Assembly: GCF_001904745.1 (NCBI RefSeq)
Contig: NZ_MRCD01000023.1
Coordinates: forward strand, 1 to 64,000
Source: Calothrix sp. HK-06
GTDB taxonomy: Bacteria; Cyanobacteriota; Cyanobacteriia; Cyanobacteriales; Nostocaceae
DNA: 64,000 nt
Direction of reading: 5' to 3'
In this document: one piece after another, positions 2,220 through 42,710 of the stretch
Layout of the letters: every line of letters begins with the position of its first letter
Position numbering within the stretch: the stretch's first letter is position 1
Made by a program: the position numbers and the translations under genes
Notes under the pieces: model-generated
Database searches by the model: none
Seen by the model: only the letters and a program-made list of their open reading frames with translations
What the model was told of the DNA's origin: nothing

Positions 2220-2345
2220 CAAAATCAGTTAAAAGTGATGAATTTTTAGTCATGAGTGCTGAGTGCTGAGTGCTGAGTTGGAACTCTTAACTCCTAACTC
2301 TTAACTTATAAATATACTCAGGACTCAGCACTTTCTACTCAGCAC
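2220..2345. repeat. TGCTGAG heptamer tandem repeats and inverted repeat
   Basis: The purL-purF gap contains three tandem copies of the heptamer GAGTGCT/TGCTGAG, then CTCAGCACT copies in the opposite orientation, so the region can fold. Similar CTCAGCACT blocks occur at 8518-8572. Short tandem heptamers of this kind are characteristic of filamentous cyanobacterial intergenic DNA. Confidence 0.7.
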
Positions 2346-4684
2346 TCTATTGAAAGTCTTCGTTCAATAGCGTTAAAAAAGTTTAAGCTGATTTCTTCAA
2401 TCGTAACTCTGATTAAAGTTTGGTTATCAGATGTTGTTACCTGTAAACCTGTATCGCAATTACCGACCTTGCCAAGTTTTTGCCAATGATTAGCCAAGTT
2501 TTTATTTATGTATGATTCCCATTCTATTTGTACTTCTGGTGATACAGAGACTACTATTCTGGCGCCACTTTCTCCAAACAGCAATTCATCAGGGCGTATA
2601 TTAGCTATGTCGTTAGATGGTAATTCTATAGTGGCACCGCAAATGGATGCAATACAACATTCTGCAAGTGCTACAGTTAAACCACCTTCCGCACAGTCAT
2701 GCGCTGAACGTATCCAATTAAGATGAATTCCTTCACGACAAACTTTTTGGACTCGACGTTCTAAATCAAAATCGATACGTGGCGGTTTACCAGCAATAGT
2801 ATTATGAATTGTCGCTAAATATTCTGATGCTCCCAGTTCGGTTTTAGATTGTACGGTTACACCTAATAAATAAATTACATCACCTGCTTTTTGCCAAGCT
2901 TGACCACAAATATTGTTTAAATTGCTAATTGCACCGACCATTCCCACTACAGGTGTTGGATAAATTGCTTGTGGATTTCCCTGTGAATCGAGCGTTTCAT
3001 TATACAAAGAAACGTTTCCACCCGTGACGGGAGTGTCTAATTCGCGGCAACCTTCTGCTAAACCTCGACAAGCTTCTGATAATTGCCAGTAACCTATGGG
3101 TTTTTCTGGACTACCAAAATTTAAGTTATCTGTAACAGCTATTGGTTCGGCACCTACACAGCTAAGATTACGTGCAGCTTCAGCAACAACTGCTTTGGCG
3201 CCTTCATATGGGTCAAGATAAACGTAACGCGGATTGCAGTCAACAGTCGCAGCAACACCCTTATAGAAAGTAGAATTTTTTACTCCTTCCTTGGGACGTA
3301 ATCTTAATATTGCAGCATCGGCGCCACCTGGAAGCATAACCGTATTATTCTGGACTTGATGGTCATATTGACGGTAAACCCAACGTTTCGACGCAATATT
3401 TGGTGTATCGAGCAAAGTTAATAAAACATCGTTCCAAGTTAGTTTTTTACCTTGCACCTCAATACCAGATGCTGTACAGCTAGGTAATTTTTCAGGTGTC
3501 CATTTCCAAGCTTCTTGGGCATATTCTGGTGGTTCTTTAAGTGATGCGCGCTCATATAAAGGGGTATTTTCTGCCAATGCCGAAGCAGGAATTTCGGCGG
3601 CAATTTCTCCCTTGAATAAAATTCTGACTATAGGTTCTTCAATTACGGTACCTGCAACAACTGCATGAAGTCCCCAACGATGGAAAATATCGATTAACTC
3701 TTGTTCGCGTCCTTTGTGTGCCACAAACAACATCCGTTCTTGTGACTCGGAAAGTAGATATTCATATGGCACCATCCCAGTTTCCCGCACTGGTACTTTG
3801 TCTAAATCAAACTCAATGCCCACTCCACCTTTTGCTGCCATTTCGGCAGTGGAACAAGTAATACCTGCTGCTCCCATATCTTGGGCAGCAACTACGGCGC
3901 CTGTTTTGAATGCTTCTAAACAAGCTTCTATTAAAGATTTTTCTAAAAATGGGTCGCCTACCTGTACAGCCGGACGGTCATCCATTGATTGATCGCTAAG
4001 TTCGGCACTAGCAAAACTGGCGCCTCCCATTCCATCGCGTCCTGTTGTCGAGCCAACATATAATACAGGGTTGCCAAATCCGGAGGCGCCGGATTTTACT
4101 ATTTCTGGCGTTTCCATTAACCCTAGTGCCATCACATTAACTAAAGGGTTGCCTGAATAAGCAGGGTCAAAATAAACTTCTCCACCAACAGTGGGGACTC
4201 CAACCGCATTACCGTAGTGAGAAATACCAGCAACTACACCTTGAAATAATCTTTGAGTTCTAGAATCTTCTAATGAACCGAATCGCAGCGAATTTAGTAC
4301 AGCAATGGGACGCGCACCCATTGTAAAAATATCTCTAAGTATACCACCAACACCTGTAGCGGCGCCTTGAAATGGTTCGACGGCAGAAGGGTGATTATGC
4401 GATTCGATTTTAAACGCTAGTTGTAAACCGTCACCAATGTCCACAACACCAGCATTTTCACCAGGACCAACGAGAACGTGCTTACCTGTGGTAGGGAACT
4501 GCTTTAATAAAGGTCGAGAATTTTTATAGCAGCAGTGTTCTGACCACATTACACCAAACATTCCCAACTCAGCTTTATTAGGATGGCGCCCTAATCTATT
4601 AAATATTTCTTGGTATTCTTCGGGCTTAATGCCTTCTTCGGCGATTTCTTGGGGAGAAAACGGAGGTTGTGAGGAGACGGTCAT
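2339..4684 (-). CDS. purL: Phosphoribosylformylglycinamidine synthase subunit PurL
   Basis: ATP-dependent amination of FGAR to FGAM in purine synthesis; this small-type PurL works with separate PurQ and PurS subunits, which are not in this window. The protein is about 781 residues, normal for the class. Conserved segments include [10 protein letters not shown] near the N-terminus, the glycine-rich [14 protein letters not shown], a first AIRS-like half with [20 protein letters not shown], and a second half with [12 protein letters not shown] and [12 protein letters not shown]. The open frame extends 18 codons further upstream to 4738, but family members begin near the [10 protein letters not shown] segment, so I chose the ATG at 4682-4684. 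It precedes purF on the same strand. Confidence 0.95.
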
Positions 4685-5043
4685 ATTGAAGTATGCACCA
4701 TAGCGACAGAGGAATATTCTACCCATTTCTGTCACCACTGTGTTAATTACCTGGGTCTAGAAACCGGGTTTCTACACATTCATTGTCGCAGACAAATCGT
4801 CATTTTTATAACAAACTTCAAATAAGAAACGCGGTTTCTAACTTATTAGCCGTTATTATATAAACTATTGGCATAGCTTATTGATATTGTAACAGTGCTT
4901 ACGGTTCTAAATGACATTATATGCATTGGTACCATAAAAATCGGTATCAAACATAGTGCTAGGTTTTTTAAGGTTAAAACTGAATTTACCTATTCAGGCG
5001 TCCTTGGAGAAGAGGGATACTACGAAATAGCAGGCGCCTGTAT
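4685..5043. other. Intergenic region with AGAAACCNGGTTTCT palindrome
   Basis: The stretch upstream of purL contains one copy of the dispersed palindrome AGAAACCGGGTTTCT at 4759-4773 and a GGCGCC site near 5033. No coding sequence is supported. A promoter for purL must lie here but I cannot place it with confidence. Confidence 0.35.
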
Positions 5044-5059
5044 TGTGATGACAATCACA
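5044..5059. promoter_or_regulatory. CRP-type operator, copy 1
   Basis: TGTGATGACAATCACA is a perfect TGTGA-N6-TCACA palindrome, the consensus bound by cAMP receptor proteins including cyanobacterial SYCRP1 and AnCrpA. It ends 43 nt before an AATAAT -10-like element at 5103-5108. The inferred RNA start near 5115 puts the operator centre at about -63, the class I activator position. The same arrangement recurs in copy 2. Confidence 0.75.
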
Positions 5060-5114
5060 TAGATACATGATTAAGATCGTCTTCTTTAGGTTGTGACACT
5101 GGAATAATAAAGAT

Positions 5115-5190
5115 ACTGAACTCTAGCCGAGTCATTAATAGGGAACACACTAAGCGCCGACAGCCTTTTACCAGACTGTCGGTTTTTTGT
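5115..5190 (+). ncRNA. Small RNA, tandem copy 1, with Rho-independent terminator
   Basis: An approximately 75-nt transcript is inferred. It starts near ACTGAACTC, contains a short hairpin (ACTC-tagcc-GAGT), a linker with AGGGAACACACTAAG, and a terminator stem CCGACAG (5157-5163) pairing with CTGTCGG (5176-5182), followed by a T run. A near-identical copy lies 180 bp downstream. The terminator loop differs between copies (CCTTTTACCAGA against CCTTTGAACAAGA) while the stem is unchanged, as expected for a functional hairpin. I do not recognise the family; tandem layout recalls NsiR1 of Nostoc, but there is no hetF here and I cannot match the sequence from memory. Confidence 0.7.
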
Positions 5191-5221
5191 TTTACACGTA
5201 AATCCGTTTAATTGCTTACAG

Positions 5222-5237
5222 TGTGACGCTAATCACA
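5222..5237. promoter_or_regulatory. CRP-type operator, copy 2
   Basis: TGTGACGCTAATCACA, again a perfect TGTGA-N6-TCACA site, with a spacer different from copy 1. It ends 43 nt before CATAAT at 5281-5286, exactly the same spacing as in copy 1, although the DNA between operator and -10 has diverged. Conserved half-sites and spacing within diverged sequence argue for selection. Confidence 0.78.
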
Positions 5238-5293
5238 AACTTATATGATGTTGGTCGTATCGCTCACAGTATAAGGGGTGCATAATAAAAGAC

Positions 5294-5371
5294 AACTGAA
5301 CTCTAGCCGAGTCATTAATAGGGAACACACTAAGCACCGACAGCCTTTGAACAAGACTGTCGGTTTTTTGT
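5294..5371 (+). ncRNA. Small RNA, tandem copy 2, with Rho-independent terminator
   Basis: This is the second copy of the small RNA. It shares an almost unbroken block with copy 1 from ACTGAACTC through the terminator, with CCGACAG pairing to CTGTCGG before TTTTTTGTTTTT. It is convergent with apcD, which ends at 5522 on the other strand. The T run lies on the plus strand only, so the hairpin terminates plus-strand transcripts and is not simply the apcD terminator. The -10-like CATAAT sits at 5281-5286. Confidence 0.72.
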
Positions 5372-5521: not shown

Positions 5522-6007
5522 TTATGACATTCCTTGAATGATGTAATCAAAGTAAGGTGCTGCTTGAGAAGCATCGTCAGCAGTAAGCAAGTCGAGAGAC
5601 GCAGCTTTAAGACAGCCTATCGCTTCTACCATTCCGGGTAGGGGTACACCCAAGGAATTGTACATTTCGCGGGCGCCGACGATACCAATTTTTTCGATTG
5701 GCTCTATGTCACCAGCAAGAACACCGTATGTAACGAGACGTAAGTACCAGCCAAAATCGCGGATACATTGAGCGCGCTCACGTTGTCCGTAAGCATTACC
5801 TCCAGGAGAGATAAAGTCAGGACGCTTACGCCATAATTGTTTAGTTGCTTCTTGAACAATTTTCTTTTCGTTTTCAGAGAGGGTAGAAACAATGCGTACC
5901 CGCTGTGTACCTGTTGTCAAAAAGTCTTTGATACTTTTGAGTTCGCCACTGCTAGGGTAACGCAGTTCGTCGTCGGCTTTGAGAATAACTTGGCTTACTA
6001 CAGTCAT
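5522..6007 (-). CDS. apcD: Allophycocyanin alpha-B subunit (ApcD)
   Basis: Minor phycobilisome core subunit that acts as a terminal emitter and passes excitation energy to the photosystems, particularly photosystem I. The 161 residues match the family length exactly. The chromophore cysteine is Cys81 in [14 protein letters not shown], and the protein has the ApcD-type start [17 protein letters not shown] and end PYFDYIIQ. It stands alone, without linker or other apc genes, as is usual for apcD. Upstream is the divergent rlmD-like gene; downstream lie the tandem small RNAs on the opposite strand. Confidence 0.96.
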
Positions 6008-41603: not shown

Positions 41604-41644
41604 AGGGTAAGGACTGAAGTCCTCATTACAAAAAGGGGGAAAAG

Positions 41645-41719
41645 CAAAAAGCGCTTGGACGTGTGACCGTGTTTCCACTCCAAGCGCTTTCTGTTTTCAA
41701 CTTACTCCTCACACACTCC
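41645..41719 (-). ncRNA. Yfr2-like small RNA, copy 1
   Basis: On the minus strand a ~75-nt RNA would begin AGGAGTGTGTGAGGAGTAAG, then form a stem AAAGCGCTTGGA / TCCAAGCGCTTT whose loop contains GTGGAAACAC, and end in TTTTTGCTTTT. The GGAAACA loop is the hallmark of the cyanobacterial Yfr2 family. Two more copies (42405, 42635) conserve the 5' end, the loop and terminator; stem changes are compensated (a U-A pair here is C-G in copy 3). It overlaps nothing and is convergent with the MFS gene. Confidence 0.8.
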
Positions 41720-41722
41720 TAA

Positions 41723-41751
41723 AGAATATCCCTTGTTGTCGAATATGGCAA
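41723..41751 (-). promoter_or_regulatory. Promoter of Yfr2-like copy 1
   Basis: TTGCCA (-35, 41746-41751) and TATTCT (-10, 41723-41728) on the minus strand with a 17-bp spacer, two bases before the conserved AGGAGTG. The same arrangement precedes the other copies. Confidence 0.75.
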
Positions 41752-41817
41752 GTGTTTCTGACAACTTTTTGTAAAATCTTTCAAACCACTGTATAATCAT
41801 GTAACGATAGGCACCGT

Positions 41818-42051
41818 TTATCGTTTCTGGATAACTATATCGGGGTAACCTTGGTGTACTACAACATACTGCTCAATCCCAATATCCAGATTTGCGATGG
41901 CATCTGCATCCTTAGAAATAGTCGTCCTCTTGGCCGGAGTCTGACAATAAAAATATAAAGTTTTTTGCTTAGGGTCAAATTGTAGCTGACAAATACCCCA
42001 AAAAGGAAACCGATGCGCCCAAAATTGACAAATTAAATGAATGTAACTCAT
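41818..42051 (-). CDS. Small hypothetical protein
   Basis: A 77-residue soluble protein, with aromatic-rich N-terminus (IHLICQFWAHRFPFWGICQL) and a C-terminal VVVHQGYPDIVIQKR. The composition and the block LQFDPKQKTLYFYCQTP look like a real protein, and I believe similar ORFs occur in other cyanobacteria, but I cannot name a family. It lies between copies 1 and 2 of the Yfr2-like RNA on the same strand. Confidence 0.6.
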   Translation of the reverse strand: MSYIHLICQFWAHRFPFWGICQLQFDPKQKTLYFYCQTPAKRTTISKDADAIANLDIGIEQYVVVHQGYPDIVIQKR

Positions 42052-42404
42052 GCCTTACAGCTACTCCAGGAAAGGTGTAGATTTGTGAATCGCAATAATT
42101 AGTAAAAATTTTGTTTGATAGGCGCCATAAGAAAGCGCTAGGCTTTTGATTAAGGCTAACGCTAGAAAATATGGTGCATTCATTGAGAAAATTCCAAACT
42201 CCGAGTCTTTATCTAAAGCGACCCGTTTGAGTGCAGAGTTTTTAACTAGCTTTTAGATTCGCATCAAATACGCCTGTCTAATCGAACTTTAAGACTTTTT
42301 TCAGAATTGGGAACTTTATGTAGAGATATTACGTCCTCAATTTGCTGGAAATATTTTATACAAGTAAGTTGCTAAATATCAGATTTTTATATTTGTAGAA
42401 AGCA

Positions 42405-42477
42405 AAAAGCGCCTGGACGTGTGACCGTGTTTCCACTCCAAGCGCTTTCTGTTCTCAACTTACTCCTCACACACTCC
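42405..42477 (-). ncRNA. Yfr2-like small RNA, copy 2
   Basis: Same architecture as copy 1: 5' AGGAGTGTGTGAGGAGTAAG, stem GCGCTTGGA with TCCAGGCGC (one G-U wobble), loop with GGAAACA, and a terminal TTTTTGCTTT. The two copies are almost identical from the 5' end through the loop, whereas flanking DNA is unrelated. Confidence 0.82.
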
Positions 42478-42480
42478 TAT

Positions 42481-42509
42481 ATAATAGAGTGTTTTTAAAA
42501 TAAAACAAG
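42481..42509 (-). promoter_or_regulatory. Promoter of Yfr2-like copy 2
   Basis: CTTGTT (or TTGTTT) and TATTAT on the minus strand, 16-17 bp apart, two bases before AGGAGTG. Confidence 0.65.
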
Positions 42510-42542
42510 TAATGCTGGTGACACTTTGCTAACTGTACACCC

Positions 42543-42610
42543 AGAAACCGGGTTTATTATTACAACCTATACTAAAAAACCAAGTCTCTCAACAGAAACC
42601 CGGTTTCTCA
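42543..42610. repeat. Paired AGAAACCNGGTTTCT palindromes
   Basis: An incomplete AGAAACCGGGTTTATT at about 42543 and a complete AGAAACCCGGTTTCT near 42595 face each other across 40 bp. Other family members are at 4759, 48323, 51714, 58041, 58059 and 61328. Confidence 0.65.
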
Positions 42611-42634
42611 TTTCTCACATTTAAATAAAATACA

Positions 42635-42710
42635 AAAAGCGCCTGGACGTGTGACCGTGTTTCCACTCCAGACGCTTTATGTATTTTTCAACTTACTCCT
42701 CACACACTCC
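42635..42710 (-). ncRNA. Yfr2-like small RNA, copy 3
   Basis: The most divergent copy, with stem GCGTCTGGA pairing with TCCAGGCGC. Relative to copy 1 it has a U-A to C-G compensatory change plus a C-G to U-G wobble, so the stem is maintained. The 5' leader and the GGAAACA loop are unchanged, and it ends TTTTTG. It lies 60 bp downstream of the purH stop and has its own promoter. Confidence 0.82.

Follow-up and report, generated by a model that had tools for sequence, protein, structure and literature searches.

The interval between purL and a gene for an allophycocyanin-alpha-type protein in Calothrix sp. HK-06 (genome G000) carries two tandem copies of a short unit, which are most probably stand-alone genes for a regulatory small RNA (sRNA) that is activated by CRP-cAMP and acts in trans by base-pairing. 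This reading was drawn from the sequence of the units, their sites and spacing, their conservation, the lack of start codons and the presence of a CRP gene in the same genome. All coordinates without a contig label refer to the window, i.e. the whole stretch of 64 000 nucleotides that was analysed.

The two units were direct repeats on the plus strand, 180 bp apart, with sRNA starts at 5115 and 5295. In each repeat, a perfect TGTGA-N6-TCACA operator was followed after 43 bp by an [A/C]ATAAT element and then by a unit of ~75 nt that ended in a GC-rich hairpin and a T run. In copy 1, the upstream CRP-type operator TGTGATGACAATCACA (5044–5059, plus strand), recognized by its sequence and conserved position, was centred at approximately −63.5 and was followed by a second, degenerate CRP-like site, CATGATTAAGATCGTC (5066–5081, plus strand), which was centred at approximately −41.5 and lay 21 bp before the −10 element AATAAT (5103–5108, plus strand). 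The sRNA of copy 1 spanned 5115–5188 on the plus strand, its 5′ end being placed from the −10 element and conservation and its 3′ end from the T run. It contained the motif GGGAACACAC (5141–5150, plus strand), unpaired or weakly paired as judged from the fold, the alignments and the count, and a terminator hairpin (5156–5183, plus strand; fold and covariation) followed by the T run. The corresponding parts of copy 2, all on the plus strand, were the operator TGTGACGCTAATCACA (5222–5237), a second site TATGATGTTGGTCGTA (5244–5259) that was more degenerate than that of copy 1, the −10 element CATAAT (5281–5286), the sRNA (5295–5369), delimited by repeat comparison, fold and homology search, the motif GGGAACACAC (5321–5330; fold and exact search) and the terminator hairpin (5336–5364; fold) followed by a T run. 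The preliminary description had reported tandem units of ~75 nt with a terminator hairpin and T run, 180 bp apart, and a perfect operator exactly 43 bp before the [A/C]ATAAT element at both copies; both statements were confirmed.

Copies 1 and 2 were identical across their first 41 nt (ACTGAACT...CTAAGC) and differed in the terminator, by a single base at its foot and by a few bases in the loop; in both folds the terminator stem comprised eight outer pairs immediately 5′ of the T run. No ATG, GTG or TTG was found in copy 1 in any frame, so peptide coding is unlikely. At the level of sequence this is a short non-coding unit with an intrinsic terminator, as in CRP-activated sRNAs. Generic promoter and terminator scans reported neither unit, an absence that carries no evidential weight. 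The motif GGGAACACAC was exact in 138 of the 146 copies that were read, and in 101 of 109 in a more distant set. It was the 5′ part of the RNA, not the terminator, that was most conserved, changing slowly from ACTGAACTC... to ACTCAACTC..., and the terminator pairs were those that covaried best. In 500 shuffles, the value observed for the whole structure was never reached on any of five measures; the alignment (A3), in which one pair of the 5′ hairpin was broken in 83 of 101 rows, had been fitted to the model.

A search with copy 1 recovered the RNA in 27 of 41 genomes, including the window genome with two copies and six congeners with three copies each. In the best 20 loci by score, all from the window's family, a 34-nt core was identical in 37 copies. 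Within the named collection, at least 116 contigs contained an exact 29-nt core, and of the 80 for which titles were listed nearly all came from Nostoc, Calothrix, Fischerella, Scytonema and similar genera. The preliminary description had proposed a covariance search of cyanobacterial genomes. A first covariance model (R1), built from 18 sequences, was run on 388 genomes of the class and identified the RNA in 177 of them, some lying well outside the window's order. A second model (R2) was run on 40 genomes that were positive for CRP and negative with R1, and gave matches with E ≤ 4e-5 in four of them (G060, G169, G194 and G253); the copy from G060 (L248), which had E 0.002 with R1, was part of the R2 training set. 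The copies found by R2 outside the training set (L315, L316, L317 and L320) each had an exact GTGA-N6-TCAC upstream. Weak R2 matches were left uncounted: L318 as a decayed copy, L319 as a chance match and L321 for an E value of 0.02 with no motif near its centre. In L318 (G392:C109:10447-10499) the terminator was absent by eye, and the genome retains CRP. Five-copy tandem arrays of the sRNA were observed in two genomes of different families (L016 and L221), every copy of the L016 array having its own GTGA-N6-TCAC operator. Neither the window units nor eight loci tested across the class matched Rfam 15 at the gathering score, and the matches obtained at low threshold were all far under the gathering scores and were taken as chance. 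The family seems to be old and apparently undescribed, and its distribution, together with the retention of the same switch, suggests an RNA arm of cyclic-AMP signalling in cyanobacteria.

An apcD-like gene was found in 98 of the 116 contigs with the 29-nt core, always downstream of and convergent with the RNA, and purL in 71 of the 116, always upstream and divergent; the loci were cut at 8 kb, so absences of neighbours are partly due to truncation. In the window these synteny partners are the allophycocyanin-alpha-type gene (5522–6007, minus strand) and purL (2339–4738, minus strand). The neighbour that the preliminary description had called apcD was present; the nearest NCBIfam model for its product was ApcA, with a score below the cut-off of that model, and the protein is presumably ApcD. 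Both purL and the apcD-like gene adjoined the RNA in three loci outside the window's order (L215, L223 and L231, two of them from one genus), which suggests that the purL–apcD locus is old. Most of the 91 distant loci had other neighbours within 900 bp. A recurring ORF family (representative of 246 aa) stood beside the sRNA in 31 of the 91 (e.g. L225, L154 and L221) and was downstream of and convergent with it in 28 of the 31 placements.

In Nostocales the element keeps its place between purL and the apcD-like gene, which raises the question of whether it is cis-acting or structural DNA, such as a terminator of either gene or a repeat, and not an RNA gene. That the terminator covaries better than the other parts would suit this explanation, as would the folding energies: the plus-strand folds were modestly more stable than shuffles (z approximately −1.9; 8 and 11 of 200 shuffles were as good), and the minus strand of the units folded somewhat better than the plus strand (z −2.75 and −3.85). 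However, a terminator for these neighbours is hard to reconcile with an element that is convergent with the one gene and divergent from the other, has its own −10 element and operators, lies beside other genes in other families and is most conserved in its 5′ part, and we regard a purely cis-acting or structural role as very improbable.

The promoters of the sRNA genes were compared after being gathered via the RNA alone, frequently several per genome. The operator GTGA-N6-TCAC (at least 7 of 8 bases, window −85 to −66) was present in 131 of 145 promoters, in 124 of them exactly, and nearly always started at −73 to −70. Another palindrome, GATN4ATC (at least 5 of 6 bases; conserved start −48 to −46), stood approximately 22 bp downstream, near −47, in 124 of the 145. 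In a second, overlapping set drawn from contigs with the 29-nt core, which shares genomes with the first and from which 6 of 134 copies with fewer than 200 upstream bases were omitted, both sites were retained in 128 of 128 copies, compared with 1–3 (first site) and 2–8 (second site) in shifted-window controls and a mean of 0.6 of 128 for the first site in a shuffle control. The pairing of operator and hairpin, whose absence from related genomes the preliminary description had named as evidence against its reading, was therefore conserved in relatives in both sets. In 101 loci that had been picked for their first site, the bases flanking the two sites and those separating them were near random, which favours selection over recent common ancestry alone. 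The preliminary description had called the stretch from operator to −10 element diverged; this held for the spacer bases but not for the second element, which was conserved across genomes. Similarly, the operator had been placed near −63 and assigned to class I. Its centre of approximately −63.5 stood, but the conserved second site near −41.5 makes this a promoter with tandem CRP-like sites (−63.5 and −41.5) and not one with a single class I site.

In 14 of the 145 promoters, no operator was present between −85 and −66. Among these, L237, L238, L242 and L245 had a GTGA-N6-TCAC closer to the start, which would fit a single site at approximately −41.5 with a true start a few bases away from the assumed one. 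No obvious operator was seen in L159, L195 and L233, and the remaining exceptions had degenerate or displaced sites, or none. The full TGTGA-N6-TCACA motif was not enriched in the 10 Mb of G000 (eight exact sites, two of them the window operators, versus 10 for a backwards control), so it is placement and conservation that decide. A further exact CRP-type palindrome in this genome, TGTGATTAAAATCACA (L309, G000:C123:87215), lay ~450 bp upstream of an ORF, which is presumably STAS-like. Judged by sequence and position, the promoter of the sRNA itself has CRP-type sites where they would activate. Published cyanobacterial CRP promoters are described as having TGTGAN6TCACA sites with the −10 element ~22 bp downstream (PMC2633013), a spacing that resembles that of the window −41.5 site, 21 bp before its −10 element. 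The promoter logic and the RNA identity proposed here are well supported at the level of sequence.

In G000, nine ORFs matched the Pfam CRP DNA-binding family above the cut-off. Only one of the nine, L171, had the CRP-type recognition helix RETVTR, the others having TRVTVTR, TRVTITR or similar, and the closest solved relatives of L171 were CRP-family proteins, with NtcA far lower. The CRP orthologue of this genome, a relative of AnCrpA/SyCRP1, lies at G000:C111:34472-35170. A strong CRP orthologue (E ≤ 1e-60) was present in 282 of the 388 genomes of the class, and the RNA was found in 167 of these 282 compared with 10 of the 106 others. Viewed from the RNA, a strong orthologue was present in 167 of 177 RNA-positive versus 115 of 211 RNA-negative genomes, a comparison that is confounded by phylogeny; the Fisher test of this co-occurrence takes no account of phylogeny, and its result does not give a probability of function. 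As the RNA was absent at the threshold used in 115 of the 388 genomes despite the presence of CRP, CRP does not require the RNA. Seven of the 10 RNA-positive genomes that lacked a strong orthologue were drafts less than 90 % complete (G118, G130, G292, G315, G317, G397 and G411) and two were fragmented assemblies (G192 and G368). In the last, G319 (two contigs), the CRP orthologue was reduced to its C-terminal ~92 codons, interrupted by one stop (L328, G319:C1:2550404-2550688), although the sRNA with its operator (L146) is still present there. A second match was also seen in most genomes listed in the orthologue search, and the RET helix was absent from the three weaker relatives compared (L322, L324 and L326).

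With nine members of the DNA-binding family in G000, the main driver of the same sRNA might be another regulator of the CRP/FNR family, such as NtcA, CRP having no part or only a modulating one. The −41.5 site (TGAT-N4-ATCG), placed 22 bp after each operator, departs from the CRP consensus, and a strong CRP orthologue is missing from the 10 RNA-positive genomes considered above. The −63.5 operators themselves fit the relaxed NtcA pattern GT-N10-AC (PMC6166021), so NtcA might also bind there. The stricter site GTA-N8-TAC, however, was found neither in 5020–5130 nor in 5200–5310, the −63.5 site is a full CRP consensus, the recognition helix of CRP type is unique to L171 among the nine ORFs, and eight of the 10 exceptions are incomplete drafts (seven) or have a broken CRP gene (one). 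Control chiefly by another family member therefore seems quite unlikely. Control by CRP, as claimed in the preliminary description, is supported by the motif, by its spacing and by the tendency of RNA and CRP gene to occur in the same genomes; transcription and binding are what these would imply.

Under the preferred reading, that of a CRP-cAMP-activated sRNA, high cAMP would lead CRP, the AnCrpA/SyCRP1 relative, to occupy a strong site at approximately −63.5 and, 22 bp away and in phase with it, a weaker site at approximately −41.5 that would substitute for a −35 element. CRP would then recruit RNA polymerase to the −10 element, and transcription would end at the intrinsic terminator. In the predicted fold of the RNA, a short hairpin at the 5′ end and the terminator hairpin flank a stretch that is largely unpaired and contains GGGAACACAC. 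This motif would most likely base-pair with mRNAs, extending the cAMP response to the post-transcriptional level. The presence of two copies in tandem, under separate operators, may serve to raise the dose. We infer from the features described above that the units are transcribed, that CRP-cAMP binds and activates their promoters and that the RNA works by pairing with targets.

Exact-complement searches yielded no conserved mRNA target, either with GTGTGTTCCC in nine genomes of one genus with genomes of 2.4–2.8 Mb (24 matches, nine of them the sRNA genes) or with GTGTGTTCCCT in eight genomes from the same family as the window (32 matches, including 17 sRNA genes; two without a locus were left out of inspection). 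Matches that recurred in several genomes fell in the 3′ UTR of a RecJ-like gene (three genomes), inside a coding frame (two genomes; L261 and L274), where that strand had no ORF (two genomes; L265 and L276), or between genes in three congeners (L299, L304 and L306) with no long ORF after them on that strand. In the window genome, GTGTGTTCCCT, an 11-base complement of the sRNA motif, occurred in a 5′ UTR, 52 nt before an ATG (L293, G000:C172:73189), and this was not repeated among the matches of relatives; the protein encoded downstream is presumably of CAP/SCP type. When duplex energies were computed for the starts of 43 window ORFs, no gene stood out: the best was a PurF-like ORF at 552–2048 (−14.8 kcal/mol, the 5 % level of shuffles being −14.7), and purL and the apcD-like gene gave −13.7 and −10.6 kcal/mol against a shuffled median of −9.8. 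No specific mRNA target is claimed here.

Just 3′ of the RecJ-like ORF, three genomes of one genus with genomes of ~2.5 Mb (L255, L271 and L275), by inference Thermosynechococcus, carried two to three repeats of GGGAACACAC, GGAACACAC or GGGGAAACACAC with CGAGCCGACAG, which resemble the sRNA core plus half of its terminator. The preceding ORF is one that we take to be RecJ, and the repeats may be a binding site for a protein, a sponge or the remnant of an sRNA array.

Since no conserved mRNA target was found, the RNA might instead be a decoy for a protein that recognizes GGGAACACAC, in the manner of CsrB but with a different protein. The whole 5′ part, including the loop of the hairpin, is near-invariant in the window's family, GGGAACACAC recurs in the RecJ-like 3′ UTR of the three genomes above, and its AGGGA fits the ANGGA motif that has been pointed out in Yfr2 (PMC2662882). 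Each copy of the RNA carries a single such motif, however, and CsrA, the known reader of motifs of this type, was found in none of 145 genomes, with E. coli, B. subtilis and T. maritima positive as controls, by which identity with a CsrB-type decoy of CsrA was rejected. A protein decoy of another kind is unlikely, and pairing with mRNAs is preferred.

A broader picture, which we consider rather doubtful, is that of an ancient core of cyanobacterial cAMP signalling: a near-invariant sRNA behind tandem CRP sites, housed in a purL–apcD locus inherited from an early ancestor, lost or decaying where CRP is lost, and acting as a global regulator through GGGAACACAC, perhaps via an RNA-binding protein whose motif recurs in the RecJ-like 3′ UTR of one small-genome genus.

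In cyanobacteria, cAMP has been linked to light-controlled motility and CRP to nitrogen-related gene control (PMC4284465, PMC2633013). The CRP regulon of this group has so far been hard to define, and a 2009 survey reports no high-scoring sites before AnCrpA-regulated nitrogen-fixation genes (PMC2633013). A conserved sRNA behind tandem CRP-like sites would give this regulon a strong direct target together with a post-transcriptional route, and the alignment and covariance model make the family directly testable in laboratory cyanobacteria. No published description of the RNA family was found among the open-licence papers searched, and Table S3 of PMC4734099 may list it unnamed in Nostoc PCC 7120; the name apcD does not occur in the main text of that paper. 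The words CRP and cAMP are absent from a review of cyanobacterial sRNAs (PMC6202907), as are ‘small RNA’ and ‘non-coding’ from the survey of CRP sites (PMC2633013).

Several known cyanobacterial sRNAs were compared with the window RNA. Yfr1 is likewise short, with a presumably unpaired invariant motif, CACUCCUCACACC, and is present in all 89 genomes analysed (PMC4734099). The window RNA resembles it in having a largely unpaired conserved motif, but this motif is GGGAACACAC, and identity with Yfr1 was rejected because CACUCCUCACACC is missing from the RNA sequence; the Yfr1 locus also differs, lying between guaB and trxA in Synechococcus (PMC6202907). Identity with Yfr2/Cyano-1 (RF01701) was rejected as well, since the units were unmatched at the gathering score and the only RF01701 matches of the window lay within 41643–42709. 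There, three Cyano-1 RNAs were observed on the minus strand over ~1.1 kb. Each contained GTGTGAGGAGT, which is complementary to the Yfr1 motif; that the Yfr1 and Yfr2 motifs are nearly complementary has already been published (PMC6778093). Ncr0700/PmgR1 is dark-induced, but was set aside on the grounds that its orthologues overlap over 195 nt and the main text describing it does not contain ‘CRP’ (PMC5386190).

NsiR4 and NsrR1 are likewise cyanobacterial sRNAs under a protein of the CRP/FNR family, namely NtcA, whose activator sites lie around −41.5 (PMC6166021). They differ from the window RNA in having NtcA sites and a nitrogen signal, and NsrR1 is described only from heterocystous strains (PMC6166021), whereas the window RNA reaches beyond the window's order. 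Membership of the NtcA-controlled sRNAs is unlikely, the strict site GTA-N8-TAC occurring in neither promoter. NsiR1, a tandem-repeat sRNA of heterocystous cyanobacteria, is set apart by its description as HetR-dependent. It is located upstream of hetF.

The window RNA represents a new family of a kind that is already known, that of CRP-controlled sRNAs. A study of Yersinia reportedly also concerns sRNAs under such control. CyaR and Spot 42 are further CRP-controlled sRNAs (PMC6166021), and the enterobacterial CyaR, a short sRNA gene induced by CRP (PMC6166021) and an RNA arm of the cAMP-CRP regulon, is comparable to the genes proposed here. The window genes differ from CyaR in belonging to another phylum and in having tandem sites at −63.5 and −41.5 and tandem gene copies; the likeness proposed is one of working.
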